The notes under the pieces were generated by a model. It had not been told where the DNA came from. It was given only the letters and a program-made list of their open reading frames with translations, and did not search any database. 64,000 nucleotides of DNA from the IMG/VR virus record IMGVR_UViG_3300030329_005082, positions 90,662-154,661 of that record. The stretch is one strand, 5' to 3'. Of this stretch, positions 1 through 53,769 are shown in pieces. This DNA comes from a virus. Position 1 is the stretch's first letter. Every line of letters begins with the position of its first letter. Made by a program: the position numbers and the translations under genes.

Positions 1-32
1 AACTTCCGCCACTCTGTTAGTAGTTTTTTCAT
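1..32 (-). CDS. Start of a further tagged payload gene (runs off left edge)
   Basis: Only the first ten codons and part of the next lie in the window. The ATG is at 32-30 and the reading frame gives MKKLLTEWRKF, the same leader found on the genes to its right. The stop of the preceding gene lies at 37-35, two bases before this ATG, so it is packed into the same chain. The body of the protein is not visible, so no function can be given; its presence shows that the tagged gene array continues beyond the window. Confidence 0.8.
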   Translation of the reverse strand, partial: MKKLLTEWRK

Positions 33-34
33 TA

Positions 35-409
35 TCAACCCAAGCCTCCGATTTCATCATTGGTTACTAGGTGCTTTATTATTTGAAATGCCATTGCAGC
101 CGGAATGACTGAGCCGCCGGGCAACATCGTCGCCATTAACGTGTTCTGTGCTGCATCTTTCCATTCCTGGCTCTCTTCTTCTGTTAATTCCTCTCCTTTT
201 TTCCATTTATCTAGCGCAACAACAAATGGCTTACTGCTCGGTGTTTTACTCTTGACTACTTTCGTAAATTTTAAAATTAAAGATTTGAGTTCATCAAAAT
301 GCTTTCTAATCCAATCTGTGATTTTACCTTCACGGAGTGCTTGTTCGTATCCTTCTACAAGTAAAACTTGTTGTTCATACTTCCGCCACTCTGTTAGGAG
401 GTCTTTCAT
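35..409 (-). CDS. Tagged small protein, unknown body (124 aa)
   Basis: The start is taken as the ATG at 409 because it forms an ATGA overlap with the stop of the gene to the right and because the protein then begins MKDLLTEWRKY, the leader shared by its neighbours; an upstream extension of 25 codons would lie inside the neighbour. After the leader come a charged helical region, then a W-x-x-G-x-x-LT-x-E segment (about residues 68-82) and a hydrophobic stretch around LPGGSVIPAAMAF (about residues 97-109) that may touch a membrane. I do not recognise the family with confidence. By position it is another member of the payload array. Confidence 0.75.
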   Translation of the reverse strand: MKDLLTEWRKYEQQVLLVEGYEQALREGKITDWIRKHFDELKSLILKFTKVVKSKTPSSKPFVVALDKWKKGEELTEEESQEWKDAAQNTLMATMLPGGSVIPAAMAFQIIKHLVTNDEIGGLG

Positions 410-900
410 TTTTTCTTCCCTGGGTATCTTTCCCAGTCTTCTCGTTCTGAATATGGTATTCGTGGCTGTGGGTCGTATCCCCACTCTAGCCAGGAGTTGC
501 CGTCAGTGAAAATATCTCGGGCAGTTACTGATTTCTTTATAATGTCGTATTCGCCGTTAAGCGCACTCTCGCCGTGATCTTTAGCATACTGTCTTACAGT
601 CGTAACCCAGTCACCACGATTAATGCCTCGTATACCTTTTGGAACGGCTCGGTAAACTGTGAGTTGTTTGTCCCGTCGTCCGTGGGCTTTGCGGAGAATA
701 TTATAAGCCTCGGAGTCTAAGAAACGGTCGCCAGTCCCATACCAACTCATACCATTGGGTCCGTAGACATCATCTGGATATATACCGTTGGCTGCGATGT
801 TCCATAGAGGAGCACCATCTTCCGCCATTGGGGCAGAGTGCTCGCCCTTGTAGTCTTCTTCTTTTAGAAACTTCCGCCATTCTGTTAGTAGTTTTTTCAT
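406..900 (-). CDS. Tagged ADP-ribosyltransferase-like protein (YRAVP/DWVTT type)
   Basis: The 164-residue protein begins MKKLLTEWRKFLKEE. The body has APLWNIAANGIYPDDVY (about 29-45), VYRAVP (82-87), GDWVTT (96-101) and EWGYDP (139-144). This order of an arginine-bearing strand followed by an S/T-rich strand is that of an ART-like fold seen in phage head-associated and polyvalent proteins, and YRA recalls the VYRAQ motif of T4 Alt. The classical ExE catalytic motif is not obvious, so activity is uncertain. It overlaps both neighbours by 4 nt (ATGA), implying translational coupling. The fold assignment comes from motif memory, not a search. Confidence 0.8.
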   Translation of the reverse strand: MKKLLTEWRKFLKEEDYKGEHSAPMAEDGAPLWNIAANGIYPDDVYGPNGMSWYGTGDRFLDSEAYNILRKAHGRRDKQLTVYRAVPKGIRGINRGDWVTTVRQYAKDHGESALNGEYDIIKKSVTARDIFTDGNSWLEWGYDPQPRIPYSEREDWERYPGKKK

Positions 901-1217
901 CGCCTTACAAACCTCAAATCACCATCGGTATTGGCTATCTGGCTTGGTTTGGCTTCAAAGTCTTCACCAACATAGCGATATTCCCCTGGGTTGTCTGCCT
1001 CTTGTATATCGTCTTCATCTACAAACGCATAAACTACATAGAAGTCCTCGTCATTATAAATTGCCGAAGTAACAGCGTGGTCGCCAGCAAATTTGCGGGA
1101 CAAAGTTACATAATCATTATTCCTAATAACTTTTGTGAAAGCAGGTTGTGCTCGGAAGATTTTTACCTTCTTTCCCTCTTTCAAAAACTTCCGCCACTCT
1201 GTTAGTAGTTGTTTCAT
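897..1217 (-). CDS. Tagged short ART-like protein
   Basis: A 106-residue protein beginning MKQLLTEWRKFLKEG. The body keeps FRAQP (about 21-25), DYVTLSRKFA (about 36-45) and NPGEYRYVG (about 77-85), a compact version of the R-strand and S/T-strand layout of the neighbouring ART-like protein. It is shorter than usual ARTs (about 150-200 residues), so it may be a minimal, degenerate or regulatory version. ATGA overlaps on both sides put it in the same translationally coupled chain. No catalytic glutamate pair can be named with confidence. Confidence 0.72.
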   Translation of the reverse strand: MKQLLTEWRKFLKEGKKVKIFRAQPAFTKVIRNNDYVTLSRKFAGDHAVTSAIYNDEDFYVVYAFVDEDDIQEADNPGEYRYVGEDFEAKPSQIANTDGDLRFVRR

Positions 1218-1864
1218 CTTGTCTTTTCAACCTCAAGAACTTTTATTCTCTTAGGATCAAACATAATCCAATTCTCGTCTAACTGAATACTGTCAAAGCC
1301 TTCGTCTTCAATTTGCTGTAGATAGAGCTTGTCATACTCATCCCAGCCAGCAGTCTTGTCAACGGTCAGTTCAACTTTCATTATATATTTAGATGACAGT
1401 GCTCCACTCTCACCTCTAAGAATTTTATCTTTATCTTCCGAAAACCACATGACACCTTGAGCGCCGAAGTCACGGCTGAACTTTCTGATAGGAACGTTGC
1501 TGCCATGATATGCAATAATAGTCTGTGATCCCAATACTTCAATGGATTCTAATTTCGCTTTTTTTACTTTTATTTCCCCGGTTTCATCAATGTTTCCGCT
1601 GATTACATCTTCCGGAAAATACTCATAAGTCAATAAAGCATCTTGCTTGTCGGTCATATCTGTGTAATAGTCTTTTACGAAATCCTTGGTTGTTCCAAGA
1701 TAGATTCCGCCAGATGGGCTTTCAACTGCTCCAACTTCAGCACTATACTCTAAGTCAGGGTTCTGAAGACTGAATAGTTTGCCGCCCTCAGTAGCAACAA
1801 TCTTGTATCCTTTTCTAGACTCTTTTTGTTCTAGTAGAAATTTTCGCCAGCTAGAGGTTTTCAT
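1214..1864 (-). CDS. Tagged double-ART protein (ART-PolyVal-like C-terminus)
   Basis: The 216 residues begin MKTSSWRKFLLEQ, a leader that has lost the LLTE portion but keeps WRKFL. Residues about 18-112 form a first module (GYKIVATEGG, GGIYLGTT, YEYFPEDVISG). Residues about 115-212 form a second with AYHGSN, VMWFSED, a GFDSIQL strand and IMFDPKRIKVLEV. The second pattern (YHGS, then WFSxD, then GFDSI, then FDPxxI) matches ADP-ribosyltransferases of the ART-PolyVal kind found in phage polyvalent proteins. Two ART-like modules in one short protein suggest fusion or duplication. ATGA overlaps join it to both neighbours. Confidence 0.78.
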   Translation of the reverse strand: MKTSSWRKFLLEQKESRKGYKIVATEGGKLFSLQNPDLEYSAEVGAVESPSGGIYLGTTKDFVKDYYTDMTDKQDALLTYEYFPEDVISGNIDETGEIKVKKAKLESIEVLGSQTIIAYHGSNVPIRKFSRDFGAQGVMWFSEDKDKILRGESGALSSKYIMKVELTVDKTAGWDEYDKLYLQQIEDEGFDSIQLDENWIMFDPKRIKVLEVEKTR

Positions 1865-2292
1865 CTTTTGCCTCCTGGGTATCTAATCATGGCTTCTCGG
1901 CTCCGATAGTCCTTGTTGCGACCAAGATTAGATTTGAATCCAAATCCTTTGTAGAATTTTTTGAGCTTCGGAACGCTGCCACCAAAATCTTTAGACGGAG
2001 TTAGAGCTATAATATAATCATTTTCATCAGCCCAGTCTATGATTTTATTCATGGCTTTTGTCCCAAGTCCGGAACCTCTTTTTTCTTTCGGAACAACGAT
2101 AGAGTCAAGATTTACAATTGATTTAGAATATTCGTCACCTGGGGTTCCGGAAGACATCCAAAGATCAATCTCGTATTCATCACTTATGGATTTTGCAAAC
2201 GGTGACACGACTGCGCTGAGAGCTTGTTTACGATCCCTGTAAGACTCTTTTTCAGATAGGAATTTACGCCATTCGGTTAGTAAACTTTTCAC
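1861..2292 (-). CDS. Tagged GNAT-family N-acetyltransferase
   Basis: A GNAT fold of about 143 residues. The acetyl-CoA pyrophosphate-binding motif is RGSGLGTKAM (about residues 73-82), preceded by the strand SIVNLDSIVV and followed by FYKGFGF. The start is a GTG at 2292: it gives MKSLLTEWRKFLSEKE, matching the shared leader exactly, and makes a 4-nt GTGA overlap with the stop of the polyvalent gene. Another GTG lies one codon upstream. GNAT domains are common in phage polyvalent proteins. The acyl acceptor is unknown; a host or virion protein, RNA or small molecule are all possible. Confidence 0.88.
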   Translation of the reverse strand: MKSLLTEWRKFLSEKESYRDRKQALSAVVSPFAKSISDEYEIDLWMSSGTPGDEYSKSIVNLDSIVVPKEKRGSGLGTKAMNKIIDWADENDYIIALTPSKDFGGSVPKLKKFYKGFGFKSNLGRNKDYRSREAMIRYPGGKR

Positions 2293-5200
2293 CACTCTTC
2301 CTCTTCGTCTTCGTCGTCATACTCTGGCTCTTCAAAAGAACCAAAGCCTTGATCACGCTTTGTTTCGTAGTAAATTTCAGCCTCTTCTGGGGTGCCGGTA
2401 GCAAAGTCTGACTCGTCAACACTATACTCCTCTAGTCCCATCTCTTGTGCGTTCATTAGAATATTATACTCTTGCAAGAATGAAGCTGGGATTCTGCCCT
2501 TATACCCATATATTCCAACTTCACGGGACAAAGAAAAACTGTCAACATCTAAATCACGACGTTGGCGGTCTCTAAAACTTGAACAAATATAATCATAACA
2601 CCCTGTGTCGCCAGAAGTAATATCAACATCGTAATCAGGAATCATCAACGCTTTGTCTGGAATTCTCAAAGCTACAACCATGGGATCGCCGCCTACTTTG
2701 CGAGAAGTGTGGAATGCGTGATGTAGCGCCTCATCAAAACGGGAAGAAAAGAATACTGCATCAGGATGAGATATTCCTTCGTAGTTTGTTTCTTTCTCGC
2801 CAGGAACAAGTCCAAACTTTAAAAGCCCTGGGATATAATCAGTGGTTGTTCCGTGGTACACAATATTTGGAATCTTTCCTCTTAGTGCCCAGCGGGATAA
2901 CTGCTCATCACCGGCTTCAGTTGGCATATATGTTACACCAGAAGCTCCCAACTCTTTGACTACTTTTTTGACAAGGATGGATGATTTTGGATCCAAAAAG
3001 AATGAGCCAACTTTCTCAAGGTGGAGATAGTTTGGACGGCTCCAATTTAATCCACCAACCAGCACGTCGCTACGCTCGGCAGAGTCTAGTATCTGCTTGA
3101 GATCATGAACTTCATCCCAATCTTGTTCTACATCCAGTGCTTGATTTATTTCTTCTTTTGTCTCTTCGTCCACTTCATCCTGAAGACGCCAGATGTTTTG
3201 GCGGTAAGCTACAATGTTACTGCCTTCTGGGTCGCCCTTGACAAACATCTCAGAGATAATTTTATTCTCGCTAAGGGTTTCTTCATCAAGCGCCTCTAAA
3301 ATAACATCTTTATACTTTGGAGACATCTCGTCGTGACCAGGGACATCCGCAAGATCAACAAGTTTGTGTTCTGTGTGTTCAAAACTTAATTTAATGTCAG
3401 ATTCAGGCATCTCTGCTTTATAAAATGTTTCGTCACCAATGCTGTAGAGTTTTACAGGATTTTTGATTCTTAAGTTTGTTTCCTCAAAAACCTCTCTTAC
3501 TAGACCTTCTTCAAGTGTCTCGCCCTCTACAAGGTGACCACCAGGCAAATCCCAGTGTCCAGGGAAGTTTTCCATTTCTTCGCAGCGTTTGATAAGCAAA
3601 ATCTGATCACCAGAATACAATACAGCCTTGGCAACCTCTTTCACATCAGGTTTCTCATCGGATATTGATATTTCTATCTGCTCCATGATCATATTCTTAA
3701 GGAGCGACTTAACATCTTTAGATTCATTTTTTGATTCACGATCAAGCTTGTACCCTTGTATCTCTAATTCCTTCTCAATAGCGGCGGCTTGTTTGGGAGT
3801 AACATCGTATTCTGAATCGTTTCTGATATCTTCTAGCATCTTGGCTACATGATCTCTAATCTTTTTGCTTGCTGGAACTCCAAGTTCTTTTCTGGTAAGA
3901 GCTTTCCATAAAAGATCAGCAGCAAAATTCTTCCAAGTCATTTCGCCAGCATATGCTGGATAATTATCAAGAACCTTTATCACAATATCATCAGGCACTG
4001 TGTTGCTCAGGATGAAACTATCAACAACGTCAGGTATGAAAATATTACCCTCTTCCTTAAGTTTTTTCAAACTACCAAGAATGTCATATAAAGACTCTTC
4101 TGGCAGGCTCGGGGCGTGAATCATGTCTGCTAAAAACTCTGCCGAGTCTGTTCGCAACTTGCCGTCCTCGTCATACAATTCGTCCAAAAGTGAGACAGCG
4201 GGGGTGCTGGGGTTTAAGAGTGCTGCCTTGGCAAGTGAATAATCTCCCCAAGTGCCCATTGACTTATGGTATGACCCGACCTGCTTCTTGAGAACATCTT
4301 GTGGCATGTTTGGGTTCATCATTGCTTTTTTGAGAACCTCTGGTGAATAGCCCGCTGCACCCTCAGAGACGGCTCTCAAAAACTCAGGAGTAGCTTTCTT
4401 TGGATTAGAAAGCATGTGCATTACCACATATTTATCACTGTATTCTTTATTTACCTTGTTCAACAATTCCTTACTAGCGGCATCAAATATCTCTTGAGGA
4501 ACGTTAGGGTGGGCAAGTATATGCTGTAATATACTGGTTGAAACAAAAGTCTCTTTTCCGGTTTCGGAAACCTTCTTTACAAAGTCATATATTTTTTGTA
4601 TATGAGGAGTTTCCAAACTCATATTTTTTTGCACAGCATAATCTAAGATATCTAATTTATCATGAATATCAAATTTTGCGCCGGAATCGGGATCTGCGTC
4701 AATGTCTGATCCGAACTCCATAACTGACACAAGTGCTCTTTCAACCTTGTCGGCTGGAGCGCCAGGTGAAACTAAAATTCTAAATGCTGATGTTGTTGGG
4801 AGTGAATAAATACTATTGTCTATAGTGGCGACGTGATCTAATCCGCCCTTATGCGTAAAGAACCCCTGAGATGCTTCATTCTTGTGGATGATCCCGGCCG
4901 AGTTAACATCAATAACAGCGTCATATCCAAGGGCTCGTAAAATACCATTAGACAAAAGGGTAACCTTTTTGTCAGTTGCTATCTCTAATGCCTTAGCCGC
5001 TGCCTGAACGTAATCATATACTTTTTCAGACTCTGTGTCTCCGCCGTAATTACGAAAAGAAACCTTGGACAACGTTTCAACGTGTTTAGGATCTTCTAAC
5101 CAAAACTCGGGAGAAACAAATGATACTCTATCACCCTCCCTAGTGTTAGCCATCATCAGCTTAAGAGAAGCCTTTGACCCAGGAGGTCCAGCAGGCATCT

Positions 5201-7895
5201 CGTAAACTGGAAATGTATCTTGTGCAAATGCTGGGTATTTTCTGGCAATAGCAGCGTTCATTTCTTCTCTTGACGGGATGTCGCCTGTCATAGCATCATC
5301 TCCGAGCCAGAGAACTTTAGCGCCGTCTTTGATTTTCAACAGTTGTGCATATGGTCTTTTGCTGCCAAAGATCTTATTTTTGGAAGCGCGATCAACAATA
5401 TTCTTTGTCCAATGCCAGCCGTAAATACCAGCAGGAGTATTGTATTTAGTCCCTGGGTTGATGCCTACCTTTTGCACATCTGTGAAACTTACTAAAAAAT
5501 TAGGGTCTCCAATCGCATTCATGATAGCGTCCCGATCAGGATTGGAACTTATTTTAAGCTCTTCTTCTAGAACCTCTTTGATGAGGCTCCTTATTAGGCT
5601 GACAGTTTTAGACTCATTCTTTCCTGGGAGGTTTTTGTACTGTGGGTCATCCTTGGACAGGAGTGGCTGCTTTGTTTCAAATTCTTTGACTATTATGTCC
5701 CATTGTTTTTGGACCAATTTCTCAATTACATCAACGTGTTCGTCAAAGTAAGTAAGGAACGTCATGTTCTGTAGGATTTGTTTTTCGCTAGTACTAGGCT
5801 CAAAAGCAATAACAACTGCACCCATGGCTTTATAGGTCGGAGCGTTACCACTATATTGCGGGCTCGCAAATGTCTCTGGGTACAGATAGAATTTTATTGA
5901 ATCTAGCGCATTAAGAGCGGGGGTTACGTCTTCTTTTTCTTTTTCCGGAAGTCCAGCCATGGGAAGCTCTAATTGCTTGTGGGCAGCTTGAGCAGCATCC
6001 ATAATCTCATCTGATAGAGAATTGATCATAGGCTTGGAGTGTACAGGAGCTAGTTGTACCCCTCTCTTACGCAAGTAGATTGTTGACTTCATATTCTCCC
6101 AGTCACGAAGACTCCAGCCGAAAACATCTGCCATTGTTGGAGACTGTGCATATTCAAGTGGTTTTTCTGAGTTACCAGAAGCATCTTTACGGGGCCCTGG
6201 GACTGGATAATTGTCTAGCTCAAAGAAAGCTGCGACTGTCAATACACCGGCTCTTGTAAGAGGGGCATCTACTTTAAAGTTCTTTAGTTGTTTGCCAGCG
6301 ATGATTTCTTCTTCTTCGTCAGTTGTGTCCAGAAGCTCTCCATAAGGAGTCTCTTGCATCCAGCCATCTTCCATCATAGAGTTGATAATGGCTTCCTTGA
6401 CTTCATCATAAGACTCAACGACATTGGAAACATCTTCTATGAGTTCTCGGGCTCCATCAAGTTGTAATCCCCATGATTCTATCTTTCCGAAAATACGCAA
6501 TATAGCCTTACCAGTGACACTGCGTTGAATGCCAGCATCCCAATCTTCTATGTGAGCATCAGGTACATACCACTCGCTATCTTCGTAAGCAGCCTCGGCT
6601 AAGCTGGCTAAAGTTCTTAGGGGCTCCAAGCGATTGAGAGCCTGAAAGGCTTCTTTTTCGTCTTTGGCTCCAACCATTGGGGCTTTTATCATCCCCTCTT
6701 CAAGGTAAAAATCAAACTCAAAGTCAATAGACACATTGACTTCTGGCATCTCATTCCATTCGTCCCAGTCAACACTTATATTTGACCTAACATCTTGGTG
6801 ATCTAAATATGAATGCTCTAGGTCTAGAATTGCATTCCTGGCTTCATCAACAATTTGTTCAATCCGATCTTCGCCAACAAAATCAATATCATCTTCGTCA
6901 CCAGATACATCAACTGAATCAGAAGGTCCATACATCTCTAGTGCATCGGAGAGTTCTATGTTTTCCATGCCGATCAAATTATTAAACATGGTGTGTTCAG
7001 AACTGTCAGAATATGAACCACCTCTGCGAACAAAGTCTCCAAGCCATAACTTCTCGGAGAAGACGGGATGGCTCTTCTGAATATCTCTTGCCCAGGCAAT
7101 AACAGTATTCAAGAAACCAGGGACAGGCTTACCATAGATCCGAGTCTCAGGCACGAGTAGTGCTAGCGGTTTGCCTTGGGTTGCTAGTTTTGGATTATCT
7201 AAGCGACGAAGGCGAACACGAGCGATGGGCCTGATACCAGAAACGCCACGGTCGCGATCTGCAAATAATTCATGGTCGTCAAGATGTTCCTCTGCTTTTT
7301 TATAATCGTCGCCATCAATAAGATAAGCGATAGCACCGGCACGCATAGCATCAGCAATTGCACACTTGAAATAATCATGACCCTCTGAGTGGCATGATGT
7401 GATTCCTTCTTGTCCAAAGTCTGACATTCTCAGAACGTCTACTGGATGCTGAGAAATCACAACAGCATATTTGGTATCTAATACGTCCGGATTGCCGAGG
7501 AAGTTTGCTTGGAACTTGTTCCACCACTTTTGAACTTTTTCAGGAAGCTCTTTGCCAATGGTTTTTCCAAGTCTTGTTTTTCTTTCCCTTTTTCCGACAC
7601 GGGTTTCAATTTCTTGAGTTGCGGTGCCGTCTTCAAGGTTGACTTGAATGCCCTTGGCTGCCAAAGGCGTGACAATATAATCGTAAAAATTCTGGATTTC
7701 TTCATTATCGGAAGCCATCATAGGAATCAAGACACGCTCTTTGCCGCCAAAGACAGGAGACATTTCCGACTGTTCTAAATCTTTGGCAGCGTCTACGACA
7801 TAATCGTAAACCTCTGAACTAATCTCATCTAACCTACGGAATGGTTCTCTCTGGTCAGCTAAATACTGATTCCAGCTATGGAGCAAATCTTTCAT
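2289..7895 (-). CDS. Giant polyvalent protein with Nudix and ART domains (1868 aa)
   Basis: It starts MKDLLHSWNQYL, a divergent copy of the array leader, with GAGGAA as ribosome binding site. Domains in order: residues 30-290, an unknown module with a conserved SCHSEGHDYFKC segment (about 167-178); about 300-640, acidic and unassigned; 760-783, a leader-like segment NESKTVSLIRSLIKEVLEEE; 785-1030, a module with NPGTKYNTPAGIYGW and LGYDAVIDV; about 1100-1330, LRV-type repeats (NPNxPxxxL); 1389-1412, a second leader-like segment; 1418-1525, a Nudix hydrolase with box G1453-x5-E1459-x7-R1467-E-V-F-E-E; 1640-1820, an ART with YHGT (H1681) and VFFSS; then an acidic tail. Polyvalent proteins of this kind are known from phages and conjugative elements. 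It is probably packaged and injected, by analogy. Confidence 0.88.
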   Translation of the reverse strand: MKDLLHSWNQYLADQREPFRRLDEISSEVYDYVVDAAKDLEQSEMSPVFGGKERVLIPMMASDNEEIQNFYDYIVTPLAAKGIQVNLEDGTATQEIETRVGKRERKTRLGKTIGKELPEKVQKWWNKFQANFLGNPDVLDTKYAVVISQHPVDVLRMSDFGQEGITSCHSEGHDYFKCAIADAMRAGAIAYLIDGDDYKKAEEHLDDHELFADRDRGVSGIRPIARVRLRRLDNPKLATQGKPLALLVPETRIYGKPVPGFLNTVIAWARDIQKSHPVFSEKLWLGDFVRRGGSYSDSSEHTMFNNLIGMENIELSDALEMYGPSDSVDVSGDEDDIDFVGEDRIEQIVDEARNAILDLEHSYLDHQDVRSNISVDWDEWNEMPEVNVSIDFEFDFYLEEGMIKAPMVGAKDEKEAFQALNRLEPLRTLASLAEAAYEDSEWYVPDAHIEDWDAGIQRSVTGKAILRIFGKIESWGLQLDGARELIEDVSNVVESYDEVKEAIINSMMEDGWMQETPYGELLDTTDEEEEIIAGKQLKNFKVDAPLTRAGVLTVAAFFELDNYPVPGPRKDASGNSEKPLEYAQSPTMADVFGWSLRDWENMKSTIYLRKRGVQLAPVHSKPMINSLSDEIMDAAQAAHKQLELPMAGLPEKEKEDVTPALNALDSIKFYLYPETFASPQYSGNAPTYKAMGAVVIAFEPSTSEKQILQNMTFLTYFDEHVDVIEKLVQKQWDIIVKEFETKQPLLSKDDPQYKNLPGKNESKTVSLIRSLIKEVLEEELKISSNPDRDAIMNAIGDPNFLVSFTDVQKVGINPGTKYNTPAGIYGWHWTKNIVDRASKNKIFGSKRPYAQLLKIKDGAKVLWLGDDAMTGDIPSREEMNAAIARKYPAFAQDTFPVYEMPAGPPGSKASLKLMMANTREGDRVSFVSPEFWLEDPKHVETLSKVSFRNYGGDTESEKVYDYVQAAAKALEIATDKKVTLLSNGILRALGYDAVIDVNSAGIIHKNEASQGFFTHKGGLDHVATIDNSIYSLPTTSAFRILVSPGAPADKVERALVSVMEFGSDIDADPDSGAKFDIHDKLDILDYAVQKNMSLETPHIQKIYDFVKKVSETGKETFVSTSILQHILAHPNVPQEIFDAASKELLNKVNKEYSDKYVVMHMLSNPKKATPEFLRAVSEGAAGYSPEVLKKAMMNPNMPQDVLKKQVGSYHKSMGTWGDYSLAKAALLNPSTPAVSLLDELYDEDGKLRTDSAEFLADMIHAPSLPEESLYDILGSLKKLKEEGNIFIPDVVDSFILSNTVPDDIVIKVLDNYPAYAGEMTWKNFAADLLWKALTRKELGVPASKKIRDHVAKMLEDIRNDSEYDVTPKQAAAIEKELEIQGYKLDRESKNESKDVKSLLKNMIMEQIEISISDEKPDVKEVAKAVLYSGDQILLIKRCEEMENFPGHWDLPGGHLVEGETLEEGLVREVFEETNLRIKNPVKLYSIGDETFYKAEMPESDIKLSFEHTEHKLVDLADVPGHDEMSPKYKDVILEALDEETLSENKIISEMFVKGDPEGSNIVAYRQNIWRLQDEVDEETKEEINQALDVEQDWDEVHDLKQILDSAERSDVLVGGLNWSRPNYLHLEKVGSFFLDPKSSILVKKVVKELGASGVTYMPTEAGDEQLSRWALRGKIPNIVYHGTTTDYIPGLLKFGLVPGEKETNYEGISHPDAVFFSSRFDEALHHAFHTSRKVGGDPMVVALRIPDKALMIPDYDVDITSGDTGCYDYICSSFRDRQRRDLDVDSFSLSREVGIYGYKGRIPASFLQEYNILMNAQEMGLEEYSVDESDFATGTPEEAEIYYETKRDQGFGSFEEPEYDDEDEEEEW
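3660..3731 (-). other. Internal leader-like segment at a module boundary
   Basis: Encodes NESKDVKSLLKNMIMEQIEI, about residues 1389-1408 of the polyvalent protein, just before the Nudix module. It resembles the segment at 5547-5618 and the MKITKSQL..IIREE leader of the genes at 9516-10312. It may be a linker, a former N-terminus kept after fusion, or a processing site. Confidence 0.5.
5547..5618 (-). other. Internal leader-like segment at a module boundary
   Basis: Encodes NESKTVSLIRSLIKEVLEEE, about residues 760-779 of the polyvalent protein, separating the N-terminal modules from the ART-like module. It contains (L/I)-x-E triplets of the kind cut by T4-type prohead proteases. Cleavage is inference only. 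Confidence 0.5.
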
Positions 7896-9515: not shown

Positions 9516-9959
9516 TTATTTATCTTTTTTATTGCGAGGCATGTCACGACGGGCATTTTTTTTGCTTTGCATTTCCAATTCGTAACGCTCTCTGGCTTTT
9601 CGTAAGATATCATCGTTCTGTTGCTGCTGTCTTGCTTCTTCTTCTTCATCTTCAGGAGTTACTTCGGCTGGTACTGGCCAAGCTGGCTCTTCTTTGTTTC
9701 CTGGCGGTAAACCTTCTTCAACCATGCTTATGAGGTCTTCTAGTTTGTTTTGAACATATTTTGCTAAACCAAAGGCATCTGTACTCACATCATCTGCTAA
9801 TGGACTTCCGGGTTTACGGGCTTCACCAAGAGACTCCAGGGCTTTCAATAAATGACCTAGTGCCTCACTGTTGCTGCCGTAACTGCCACCTTTAGGGCGG
9901 GTAAGTCCGCCAACTTCTTCTCTGATGATTTTTGCTAGTTGTGATTTTGTAATCTTCAT
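9516..9959 (-). CDS. MKITKSQL-tagged protein, acidic/charged (147 aa)
   Basis: The start is the ATG at 9959, because GAGG lies about 8 bases upstream and the protein then begins MKITKSQLAKIIREEV, nearly identical to the start of the next gene to the right; a TTG 15 bases upstream is less likely. After the leader come a low-complexity SYGSNSEALGHLLKALESLG region and a Pro/Glu-rich acidic stretch (about 95-115). The C-terminus is highly basic (KKNARRDMPRNKKDK), which could bind nucleic acid. No enzyme motif is seen. By its leader it may be a head-internal protein. Confidence 0.72.
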   Translation of the reverse strand: MKITKSQLAKIIREEVGGLTRPKGGSYGSNSEALGHLLKALESLGEARKPGSPLADDVSTDAFGLAKYVQNKLEDLISMVEEGLPPGNKEEPAWPVPAEVTPEDEEEEARQQQQNDDILRKARERYELEMQSKKNARRDMPRNKKDK

Positions 9960-9970
9960 TTTGTTTGCCC

Positions 9971-10312
9971 TCAATCTCGCTGTCGGCGGCTTACAATATT
10001 TTTAGCCGTCAGTTGCGCTAAGTCAATTCTATCAACACCGGAAAGTTCGGTCAGTCCATTGTCTTCTAGGTATGACCGTACTAAATTTTGTATTTCTGAA
10101 TTTCTCATTAGCATGTGTAAAACATTGTTTTTTAGAGCCTCTTCGTCAGTGCCGCCAGGGAAGGACTCGCCCCTCCAAGATTTCCCGGTGATATGGCCCC
10201 CTAGTTGGTGGGCTAGTTTCACCAGATCATCATATCTATCAGAAACACCGATTTGGTGATGCCGAATTTCTTCTCTAATGATTTGTCGTAGTTGAGACTT
10301 GGTGATTTTCAT
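9971..10312 (-). CDS. MKITKSQL-tagged protein, unknown (113 aa)
   Basis: The start is the ATG at 10312, with GGAGGG eight bases upstream; the protein begins MKITKSQLRQIIREEIR. The leader has the I-R-E triplet expected of a T4-type prohead protease site. The rest is mainly helical with a glycine-rich GGHITGKSWRGESFPGG stretch (about 38-54) and no recognised domain. It lies 11 bases upstream of the second gene with the same leader, so the pair probably arose by duplication of the 5' part. A CTATTTAT element lies about 20 bases before the ATG. Confidence 0.72.
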   Translation of the reverse strand: MKITKSQLRQIIREEIRHHQIGVSDRYDDLVKLAHQLGGHITGKSWRGESFPGGTDEEALKNNVLHMLMRNSEIQNLVRSYLEDNGLTELSGVDRIDLAQLTAKNIVSRRQRD

Positions 10313-10925: not shown

Positions 10926-12119
10926 CTACAGGTCAAGCTTTAGTTTAAATGTGTATTCGTCAATCTCTTTTTTCATGACGGGGTTCGCAAGCTTTGCTAC
11001 GCCAATAAGATTTTTGTCTTCGTCAAAGATGCCGATCTGCGTGATGAAAGTTTGCTTTTGAAACTCATCTTCAAAATCACAGTATTGACTTTCTATAGTA
11101 TTCTTGATAACAAGTTGACGTGGTTCTATATAGCCCTGGCTGCCGGTTATGGTTAGTGATCGCCAATCACCATTTGAAGAACTCAACCAAGTTGGGTTTG
11201 TTGAGTTGTTTAGTTGTCCTGGCTGGGCTGTTGCAAACATAGTCATCGTTGGAATCTTTTGTGTACCTTTAAAGGTCACCATGCTAAGACTTGCCGTTGG
11301 GAATCCGCCTGCACTACTTGTGCCAGTATACGTCCCGAAATAGGTCCATTTAGGATTGACGTTTGTGGCTGCATTGCCAGTCCCAAGATAATCATCATAT
11401 GAAGTGGTGTTGATATTTGCGGAAGAAGTTAACAGAATAAACCCTTCATTATACAAAACAACACCAACAATTGACCCACTAGTTGCACCCATTGTTGAAA
11501 TAAGTTCGCCATTACGCCGAGAGTCTACTGCTTGAGCCATCAAAGACCCTGTATAGTAAAACTTAAGATCTACTGAACCTTTCTCAATTCCAGACTCAAA
11601 GAAGATGGAAGGAATCTCTATCATGTTCACGTTGCCGTGATCATACGCATCGGTATATTCATAACTGTCGCTAATATAACGATAGTAGTTCATTGTGTTT
11701 TGCAAGGCTATTAGCTTCTTGCGGTTAGTTACGAAAGCGTTTTTCTGTGCTTCTGTTCCCGCCGGAAACGGGTTAGTCGTTGTGTGAAAATATTGACGAC
11801 TCAAGGAAGCTGTCAAGGGATAAGACCCTGTGATCATTTCGCCGGGTTCCATGTTTTCATATGAGGCAGTTGTTACATTTGGAAAAGATAACCAAAACCC
11901 ATCTTTGATAATAAATGGGTAGATCAGTTGTTGAACAGTACCGTCGCGATCAACATTATACTCGTATAAACTAATAGAACCTGTGGGAATGTTTCTTCCC
12001 ATGTTTCTATCATTGTTGATATAGGCTGATCCGCTATAAAAGACAAATTCATATTCCGGACGGGTAACCATCCGATTTATGAATATATCGTCTTGACCGA
12101 ATTCGTGGAGGTATGACAT
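10926..12119 (-). CDS. Virion structural protein, tail/fibre type (397 aa)
   Basis: A beta-rich, Ser/Thr/Gly/Asn-rich protein typical of phage tail appendages. The last 40 or so residues (QIGIFDEDKNLIGVAKLANP..., ending EYTFKLKLDL) align with the C-terminus of the neighbouring 358-residue protein (TVGLYGANNELLAVGKLSEP..., ending EYTLRVRLDY), so the two share a C-terminal module. It begins MSYLHEFGQDDIFINRM after a GGGAGG-type site in the 11-base gap. Attachment to the baseplate or fibre is inferred from composition and position only. Confidence 0.7.
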   Translation of the reverse strand: MSYLHEFGQDDIFINRMVTRPEYEFVFYSGSAYINNDRNMGRNIPTGSISLYEYNVDRDGTVQQLIYPFIIKDGFWLSFPNVTTASYENMEPGEMITGSYPLTASLSRQYFHTTTNPFPAGTEAQKNAFVTNRKKLIALQNTMNYYRYISDSYEYTDAYDHGNVNMIEIPSIFFESGIEKGSVDLKFYYTGSLMAQAVDSRRNGELISTMGATSGSIVGVVLYNEGFILLTSSANINTTSYDDYLGTGNAATNVNPKWTYFGTYTGTSSAGGFPTASLSMVTFKGTQKIPTMTMFATAQPGQLNNSTNPTWLSSSNGDWRSLTITGSQGYIEPRQLVIKNTIESQYCDFEDEFQKQTFITQIGIFDEDKNLIGVAKLANPVMKKEIDEYTFKLKLDL

Positions 12120-12130
12120 GCAGCCTCCCG

Positions 12131-13207
12131 TTAGTAATCTAGTCTAACCCTAAGAGTGTACTCGTCTGCTGGAGTCTTCTTTAGAGGCTCGCTCAATTTG
12201 CCGACAGCCAACAACTCATTGTTTGCTCCATAGAGACCAACAGTTGTGATGTAGGAGACTGGATCATCCGTACTCACATCTTTGACTCTAATCTTGCTAG
12301 AGTTTAGGTAAGTTGGGTTACTGCTGTAATTGAACTCATTAGATCCTGCACGGCAGAAGTAAATTGTTGAGTTTAGTTCGGTTGTGTTGTTAAAGCTGAC
12401 ATTGCGTACTCTGCGACGAAGTGCGTCGCAGCTAGCACTGATTGCGCCAGAGACCATGAGTTGTGTGGAATTCTGTGCAGCAGGATTCATAGGTCTAGCG
12501 GCAGTAGCGATTGGAGTATTGAACACAGAAGACGTAACAACGGCAATACCAGCTTGATAGAATACTAGACCAGCAGCAACTCCTGTTGGCTCTCCATCAC
12601 TAGAGGCAGCCCATAAGACGTTATATTCGCCTGCTGGTGAGTTTGTCAAAGCATTAGTTGCATTTGTATCAGTTAGAGTAATTAATTCATCGCCTATTGT
12701 GGCCGGTGTCAGATCGCTACCAGCATTTAATACTAGCGAGAACCCGCCGCCGTTGACCTTTTGAATCTCATCCTTTGTGAGGAGTCTGGCAAAATTGATG
12801 AAATAAACTCCATTCATTCTACTAGAGGCATCAGAAGTACCAAAAGCACCAGAAACATCAAATCTCTGAATATTGCCGTCTGAGTCATACCCACACAACA
12901 TTTGGGCCATTTCATTGTAAATATCGTTTTTCTGATTGAGTTGTGTAGGGGAAAGAACTTCACCACCGGCTATTCCAGAATATAAACCAACAGTCAAATC
13001 TAGAATGTGGTTTGCTGATGAACTTAGATAAGGGTAATCATAAACTGATTGGAACATTCCGTGGGAATAATTCTTTACGTTTTCTTCTGCTCCGAAAGTA
13101 CCATAGGTTCCGGACAAGATTGTTCCTGTAAGAGGAATTGCTTCATGAAGCTTTGTTCGGTTCTGTTGAACATCTTCGCTTAGTAGTGTCTTAAAACTCG
13201 TTGCCAT
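12131..13207 (-). CDS. Virion structural protein, tail/fibre type (358 aa)
   Basis: Beta-rich protein with many Asn, Ser, Thr and Ala residues and no enzyme motif. N-terminal sequence includes LLSEDVQQNRTKLHEAIPLTGTILSGTYG in consecutive segments, and the C-terminal 40 residues are homologous to those of the 397-residue neighbour downstream. The shared C-terminus may be a trimerisation or docking module for a common partner. AAGGA precedes the ATG. It is co-oriented with and tightly spaced to the other tail genes. Confidence 0.7.
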   Translation of the reverse strand: MATSFKTLLSEDVQQNRTKLHEAIPLTGTILSGTYGTFGAEENVKNYSHGMFQSVYDYPYLSSSANHILDLTVGLYSGIAGGEVLSPTQLNQKNDIYNEMAQMLCGYDSDGNIQRFDVSGAFGTSDASSRMNGVYFINFARLLTKDEIQKVNGGGFSLVLNAGSDLTPATIGDELITLTDTNATNALTNSPAGEYNVLWAASSDGEPTGVAAGLVFYQAGIAVVTSSVFNTPIATAARPMNPAAQNSTQLMVSGAISASCDALRRRVRNVSFNNTTELNSTIYFCRAGSNEFNYSSNPTYLNSSKIRVKDVSTDDPVSYITTVGLYGANNELLAVGKLSEPLKKTPADEYTLRVRLDY

Positions 13208-53446: not shown

Positions 53447-53769
53447 TGGTGGAGGTAGGGAGAATTGAACTCCCGTCTTGTCTAGTTCCATAAAAAGGTC
53501 ATTTACAAGGTTAGTAGTGCTTTTATCGTCGGCAAAACACTTGACTAGATCATTTTACTTCTGGTGAAAATAATCAAAAACACTTAGGAATTCAAATATG
53601 GCTTTCTGTTTATTGGCTGCCACCGCCTCAAACATCGTCAGGTTATTAAGCTGCGAGTGCTAGTTGAAAATCGTCGTTTGCGATTATTAGATAAGCGTTT
53701 TTAGTGAGCCACGCTTCCCTCACCCTTGCACCTTTTTTACTTTCCTATCAATCGATCCCGGTTACCCCC
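53447..53769 (-). ncRNA. ssrA: tmRNA (transfer-messenger RNA)
   Basis: A complete tmRNA of about 323 nt that rescues stalled ribosomes. The 5' end GGGGGTA pairs with TACCTCC near the 3' end (one G-U) to form the acceptor stem, the T-arm GGGAG-TTCAATT-CTCCC follows, and CCA is encoded. The tag frame starts with GCA at 53681 and reads ANDDFQLALAA then TAA TAA, matching the A-N-D...L-A-A form of bacterial degradation tags recognised by ClpXP. PK1 is visible as interlocked stems GTGAG/CTCAC (53719-53723 with 53704-53708) and AAGCG/CGCTT (53712-53716 with 53693-53697), with the usual AGGTGCA just upstream. The downstream part is shorter and its pseudoknots were not resolved. It has its own promoter and terminator. 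Confidence 0.97.

Follow-up and report, generated by a model that had tools for sequence, protein, structure and literature searches.

Exchangeable N-terminal leaders on unrelated proteins of a T4-like environmental phage are proposed to act as capsid-targeting propeptides

In phage T4 the protease gp21 cleaves after L/I-x-E, and packaging of the internal head protein IPIII needed only its first 10 residues (PMC9026906); the N-terminus of IPII and IPIII reads MKTYQEFIAE. An N-terminal signal likewise directs the large antirestriction protein DarB of phage P1 into the head, 30 residues being enough for a reporter (PMC9024508), and in SPN3US and phiKZ a gp21-related protease removes head-protein propeptides after x-x-E (PMC5694885). 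Here we describe two short N-terminal leaders, A (MKKLLTEWRKFLKE) and B (MKITKSQLRQIIKEE), which precede unrelated protein bodies in the 178,630-bp virus record IMGVR_UViG_3300030329_005082. The window, i.e. the whole stretch of 64,000 nucleotides that was analysed, corresponds to positions 90662-154661 of this record. We propose that both leaders are very probably N-terminal capsid-targeting propeptides that act like those of the T4 internal head proteins.

Seven consecutive minus-strand genes at the left edge of the window encode products that begin with leader A or a variant of it. A previous sequence-only reading had noticed this array; all seven genes are present, and its counts of four ATGA junctions and one GTGA junction are correct. 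Two of the seven copies, MKTSSWRKFLLE (1214-1864) and MKDLLHSWNQYLAD (2289-7895), are however weaker than its title implied. Beyond the left edge of the window the array continues: three further genes there have a perfect leader A (L007:11048-11728, 11728-12201 and 12201-12593), and two diverged copies are located about 75 kb from the array (genome 172338-173462 and 173465-174256). In the edge gene a run of N, apparently an assembly gap, directly follows the leader. Leader B forms the start of about 14 further genes of the same genome, two of them inside the window. Among the eight own-genome copies of leader A with W at position 8, mean DNA identity is 0.73 at nucleotides 1-42 and 0.28 beyond, in agreement with the abrupt end of DNA-level identity that the sequence-only reading had described. 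When all N-termini of the genome were compared with each other, 86 pairs reached a score of at least 35 versus none for internal controls, and the sharing of leaders is therefore far beyond chance.

Searches for leader A were done with a degenerate DNA pattern for residues 1-12, with nothing fixed past residue 12. In IMG/VR it picked out 28 stretches, which belong to about 24 viral contigs, and 257 Gb of genomes from bacteria and archaea contained no match. Including the own genome, leader A is present on 85 proteins with 37 unrelated body clusters; the genes frequently lie in tandem, with up to seven per array. The leader is thus restricted to phages; confinement to a single genome with no link to varied bodies, which the sequence-only reading had named as speaking against itself, is not what the search showed. 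Leader B was found in at least 120 viral stretches of IMG/VR; the matches listed comprise at least 217 unique proteins and well over 100 unrelated body clusters, and among them the bodies of both leaders jointly form at least 215 clusters. In cellular genome assemblies the strict leader B pattern matched eight stretches only, all of them metagenome-assembled. A 305,838-bp contig in these assemblies carries many B leaders and is probably a phage because it also encodes a T4-like capsid protein and protease.

With the leader alone, a tblastn search against isolate phages gave no match for A and one weak match for B, and the leader DNA patterns were not found in T4, Microcystis phage Mel-JY01, Flavobacterium phage immuto, Rhodothermus phage RM378, one cyanophage and two huge phages. 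Despite this, comparison of N-termini within genomes uncovered B-like leaders in immuto and in LR756508.1. The latter, an uncultured 484-kb phage (L158, L244-L263), encodes at least 21 leaders of the B-like kind, besides about 17 that are short and T4-like (M[KR][FL]KxxLxE), and many of its leader bodies have YRG motifs and are ADP-ribosyltransferase (ART)-like in look. The isolated phage immuto (vB_FspM_immuto; L274-L281) has five B-like leaders, among them those of immuto35A_175, _176 and _190, and two other repeated N-termini, ENFDLKKFLVENKLTxNSKLLxE and MKKQILSEQFxRMQxLAGIITE, which both end in [LI]xE. The sequences of leaders A and B were not found in the papers that were searched, nor was virion proteomics of immuto.

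The end of the leader coincides with a prohead-protease motif. Conservation of leader A reaches E14, two residues past the search pattern, and drops off at residue 15. The motif [LI]-x-E closes the leader at W+5 to W+8 in 34 of 36 body types, while the body control yielded a mean of 1.1 and a maximum of 5 in 2000 draws. In leaders that are one residue longer (FVLTEG, YLLSEG, FVIKEG) the motif shifts along and is kept. For leader B, [LI]xE is present at E14 in 213 of the 215 listed, E14 itself being part of the B search pattern. The genome codes for a gp21-type protease (phrog_207, E 5e-53), a gp23-type capsid protein (phrog_138, E 2e-68), a portal protein and a terminase, and homologues of gp21 and gp23 are encoded by all eight leader-bearing viral contigs of at least 150 kb.

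The capsid protein itself provides a parallel. Its propeptide contains four [LI]xE sites that are invariant in 61 unique relatives and at which it is probably processed; the last one reads LL[KR]E and is LLKE58 in the own capsid protein, near FLKE of the leader. Moreover, LLTEWRKFLKE of leader A looks like a stretch of the own capsid propeptide, LLQKWEKTGLLE (L006:5879-7591, residues 23-34), which is largely invariant in relatives, and like LLNKWKPLLE of T4. Elsewhere in the genome LLxxW..[LI]xE occurs only in the capsid protein and a primase. It is possible that the propeptide motif and leader A represent a shared core-docking motif. As an ungapped leader profile scan of the genome did not rank the capsid propeptide, we do not claim that leader A derives from it. 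Modelled as a helix, leader A is strongly amphipathic (hydrophobic moment 0.60 versus 0.31 when shuffled), and AlphaFold models of two bodies have very low confidence at the leader, unlike at the body.

Bodies exchange their leaders between phages. In four body families, leader A of one phage is replaced by leader B in another; the closest such pair of bodies shares 89% identity across 108 residues. On relatives of the ART body of gene 1214-1864 the leader is A or a short one such as MIKLKDLLNE, MKLKLILE or MLTFKQFLNE; no convincing gp23 or gp21 homologue was detected in the contigs with short leaders on this body. The body of gene 406-900 recurs in long polyvalent proteins (L310-L312), whose C-terminal domain matches it with 89-96% identity. 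Identity starts exactly at DYKGEH, which directly follows leader A here and comes after segments such as ESLKSILRNLIKEAMEDE in the polyvalent relatives. In one leader-B protein (L073:10904-11524) a second full leader B (MKVTKRQLRQIIKEEV) is located within the chain, resembling a fusion of two leader genes. Taken together, the leader ending at a prohead-protease motif, the encoded protease and the swapping of leaders argue for the sorting signal that the sequence-only reading had suspected.

Based on these data we propose that the leader folds as a short amphipathic helix and docks the protein onto the scaffold core during prohead assembly, whereupon the gp21-type prohead protease would cut behind the glutamate of the leader's [LI]-x-E. 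The freed body would remain in the head, packed with the DNA, and be injected at infection, so that ART, acetyltransferase, Nudix, SAM lyase, 2H phosphoesterase and other bodies could immediately affect the host and its defences. A new body would be recruited by its placement behind a leader. Since the address is confined to about 14 N-terminal residues, new bodies would be recruitable, giving rise to tandem arrays with ATGA junctions.

Several observations do not fit this proposal easily. Five of 79 leaders lack [LI]xE at W+6 to W+8, and some diverged leader copies may be decaying. Leader A holds a second motif, LTE7, and the exact cut position is therefore not fixed. Three leader-A contigs of 118-147 kb are without detectable gp21 and gp23, but these may be incomplete fragments. 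Finally, no homology of leaders A and B to the T4 capsid targeting sequence (CTS) is recognisable; what they have in common with it is just the pattern MK...F-[IL]-x-E, and the leaders are too short for a homology test.

It is conceivable that the leader is a short DNA repeat which promotes recombination and gene capture, the peptide itself being functionless. Several own-genome copies are indeed near-identical in DNA and situated at gene junctions of tandem arrays, and the run of N right behind one copy would be compatible with a repeat-induced assembly gap. Yet it is the residues that are fixed across body types, whereas synonymous codons vary (five codons for R9, six for L4 and L12). The glutamate of [LI]xE is preserved in leaders one residue longer, and the unrelated leader B and short T4-like leaders substitute for leader A on the same bodies. 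We thus consider a mere repeat improbable. Also at gene starts of this genome, three unrelated open reading frames begin alike with LTLSVKMxML (L007; genome 81447-81695, 82357-82812 and 82846-83457), a repeat that is not an [LI]xE leader.

The strongly amphipathic character of the leader helix would also suit a signal that sends proteins elsewhere in the infected cell, be it to the inner membrane or to a phage compartment. FtsZ/tubulin-like proteins of the kind encoded by this phage are seen in compartment-forming jumbo phages. However, such targeting leaves unexplained why conservation ends at a prohead-protease motif, why the same motif is present in the capsid propeptide and why the leaders co-occur with gp21 and gp23, and we regard a destination other than the head as very unlikely. 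Alternatively, the leader proteins could be components of the scaffold or core, comparable to gp67 and gp68 of T4, with a leader that merely binds the core. Compatible with such a role, a leader-B-like protein (MKKSELKSLIKECIKEVIFEEG) adjoins the protease gene (genome 70525-70953), and an enzyme signature is lacking in several small bodies. Against it speaks that many bodies match enzymes of the injected or polyvalent type (ART, GNAT, Nudix, SAM lyase, C39, LigT) and that the repertoire of bodies turns over from phage to phage; we give little credit to a purely structural role. Packaging of cleavable, leader-borne proteins in the head remains the interpretation that we favor.

The bodies behind leader A include ART-PolyVal (seven members), GNAT, peptidase C39, DUF3990 and an acyl-transferase family, as well as SAM lyase, LigT-type (2H) phosphoesterase, transglutaminase-like and ParB-N proteins. 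The majority of leader bodies are without family assignment. For ART, GNAT and Nudix proteins, packaging and injection by myoviruses have been argued before (PMC5512222, PMC9503650, PMC7824862). No function was derived from 'ParB C-terminal domain', the PHROG name of the body of gene 406-900. AlphaFold models of two bodies had medium confidence, and in fold searches they matched ART-like and GNAT-like structures only weakly; solved structures gave no match in a profile search; hence, the body of gene 406-900 was left without assignment.

The 1868-amino-acid protein joins a NUDIX domain (E 1e-13) to a C-terminal phrog_11974 domain and, with at least two effector domains that differ in chemistry, qualifies as a polyvalent protein. 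Its C-terminal domain is also found in Vibrio phages and contains a YHGTT motif that is ART-like by sequence inspection alone. In a genome-wide scan with a leader-B profile, the only matches located inside proteins, at a distance from the start, that rose above the reversed-protein null were those at amino acids 763 and 1394 of this protein. These two internal B-like segments suggest that the 1868-amino-acid protein and similar ones might be cleavable polyproteins, in which effector domains follow internal leader-like segments of their own that dock in the core, and cuts by the prohead protease would release several injected effectors from one packaged chain; we put this forward tentatively, as somewhat doubtful. 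If true, standalone leader-effector genes and polyvalent proteins would be interconvertible layouts of one delivery system.

Table 1. Genes, leader-like segments and domains of the leader arrays (window coordinates).
Position	Strand	Feature	Remarks
1..32	-	Start of edge gene, leader A MKKLLTEWRKF	ATG at 32; runs left out of window into N run
35..409	-	124-aa protein, leader A variant MKDLLTEWRKY	following [LI]xE: LVE, residue 19; no family match for body
406..900	-	164-aa protein, leader A MKKLLTEWRKFLKEE	body from residue 16 matches phrog_2579 C-terminal domain
897..1217	-	106-aa protein, leader A MKQLLTEWRKFLKEG	body akin to phrog_2579 C-terminal domain
1214..1864	-	216-aa protein, leader A variant MKTSSWRKFLLE	ART-PolyVal (PF18760), E 4e-4, under curated cutoff
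1861..2292	-	143-aa GNAT acetyltransferase, leader A MKSLLTEWRKFLSE	GTG start
2289..7895	-	1868-aa polyvalent protein, degenerate leader A MKDLLHSWNQYLAD	
5541..5609	-	Internal B-like leader segment KTVSLIRSLIKEVLEEEL, about aa 763-785 of polyvalent protein	above reversed-protein null
3654..3716	-	Internal B-like leader segment SKDVKSLLKNMIMEQIEIS, about aa 1394-1414 of polyvalent protein	directly before Nudix domain
3378..3629	-	NUDIX domain of polyvalent protein, aa 1423-1506	PF00293, E 1e-13
2460..3275	-	C-terminal domain of polyvalent protein, aa 1541-1812	phrog_11974
9516..9959	-	Leader B gene MKITKSQLAKIIREEV	
9971..10312	-	Leader B gene MKITKSQLRQIIREEI	

Apart from the leader genes (Table 1), the window contains a phage-encoded transfer-messenger RNA (53447-53769, tag ANDDFQLALAA), and it shows no enrichment of the T4 late-promoter motif TATAAATA. 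Other genes of the phage encode GroEL, FtsH, an IMPDH/GMP-reductase-like enzyme, an FtsZ/tubulin-like protein and an RseP-like protease (L003:17702-19288, L004:5888-7714, L004:3424-4464, L007:510-1646 and L007:9762-10583).

Injected phage proteins are hard to spot by sequence. If the leaders are packaging tags, the first 14 residues would reveal which proteins T4-like environmental phages inject, and many bodies that are so far without a function would become candidate counter-defence proteins. Putting a leader in front of a protein would also provide an evolutionary route to new effectors and would tie single injected effectors to polyvalent proteins.

The designation as an undescribed system in the sequence-only reading is too strong because the T4 CTS and the P1 DarB signal have already established the principle. 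What is new here is the use of predicted packaging leaders that fall into classes, are exchangeable between bodies and precede a far larger effector set than that of T4. Like the leaders described here, the T4 CTS (IPI-III, Alt) is a short N-terminal MK... leader on unrelated bodies which ends in L/I-x-E for the gp21 protease, and its cargo consists of diverse counter-defence proteins including an ADP-ribosyltransferase (PMC9026906, PMC3012670). The leaders of this study differ from it in sequence and length (14-22 residues); moreover, about 26 leader proteins are encoded in one genome, compared with a handful in T4, there are at least two interchangeable leader classes, and packaging is predicted from sequence. 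The N-termini of the P1 Dar proteins share no consensus according to the P1 authors (PMC9024508), whereas the leader is near-invariant across bodies here. In SPN3US and phiKZ the diverged head proteins gp53 and gp54 have identical N-termini, but most propeptides exceed 100 residues and only these two proteins were noted to have a common leader (PMC5694885). Polyvalent proteins (Iyer et al. 2017, PMC5512222) resemble the 1868-amino-acid protein in their Nudix, ART-like and other domains, which are predicted to be injected, and their ART-PolyVal domains are also among the leader bodies. Unlike in the polyvalent proteins described so far, the same domains occur here also as single genes with a leader of their own, and leader-like segments are present inside the polyvalent protein.
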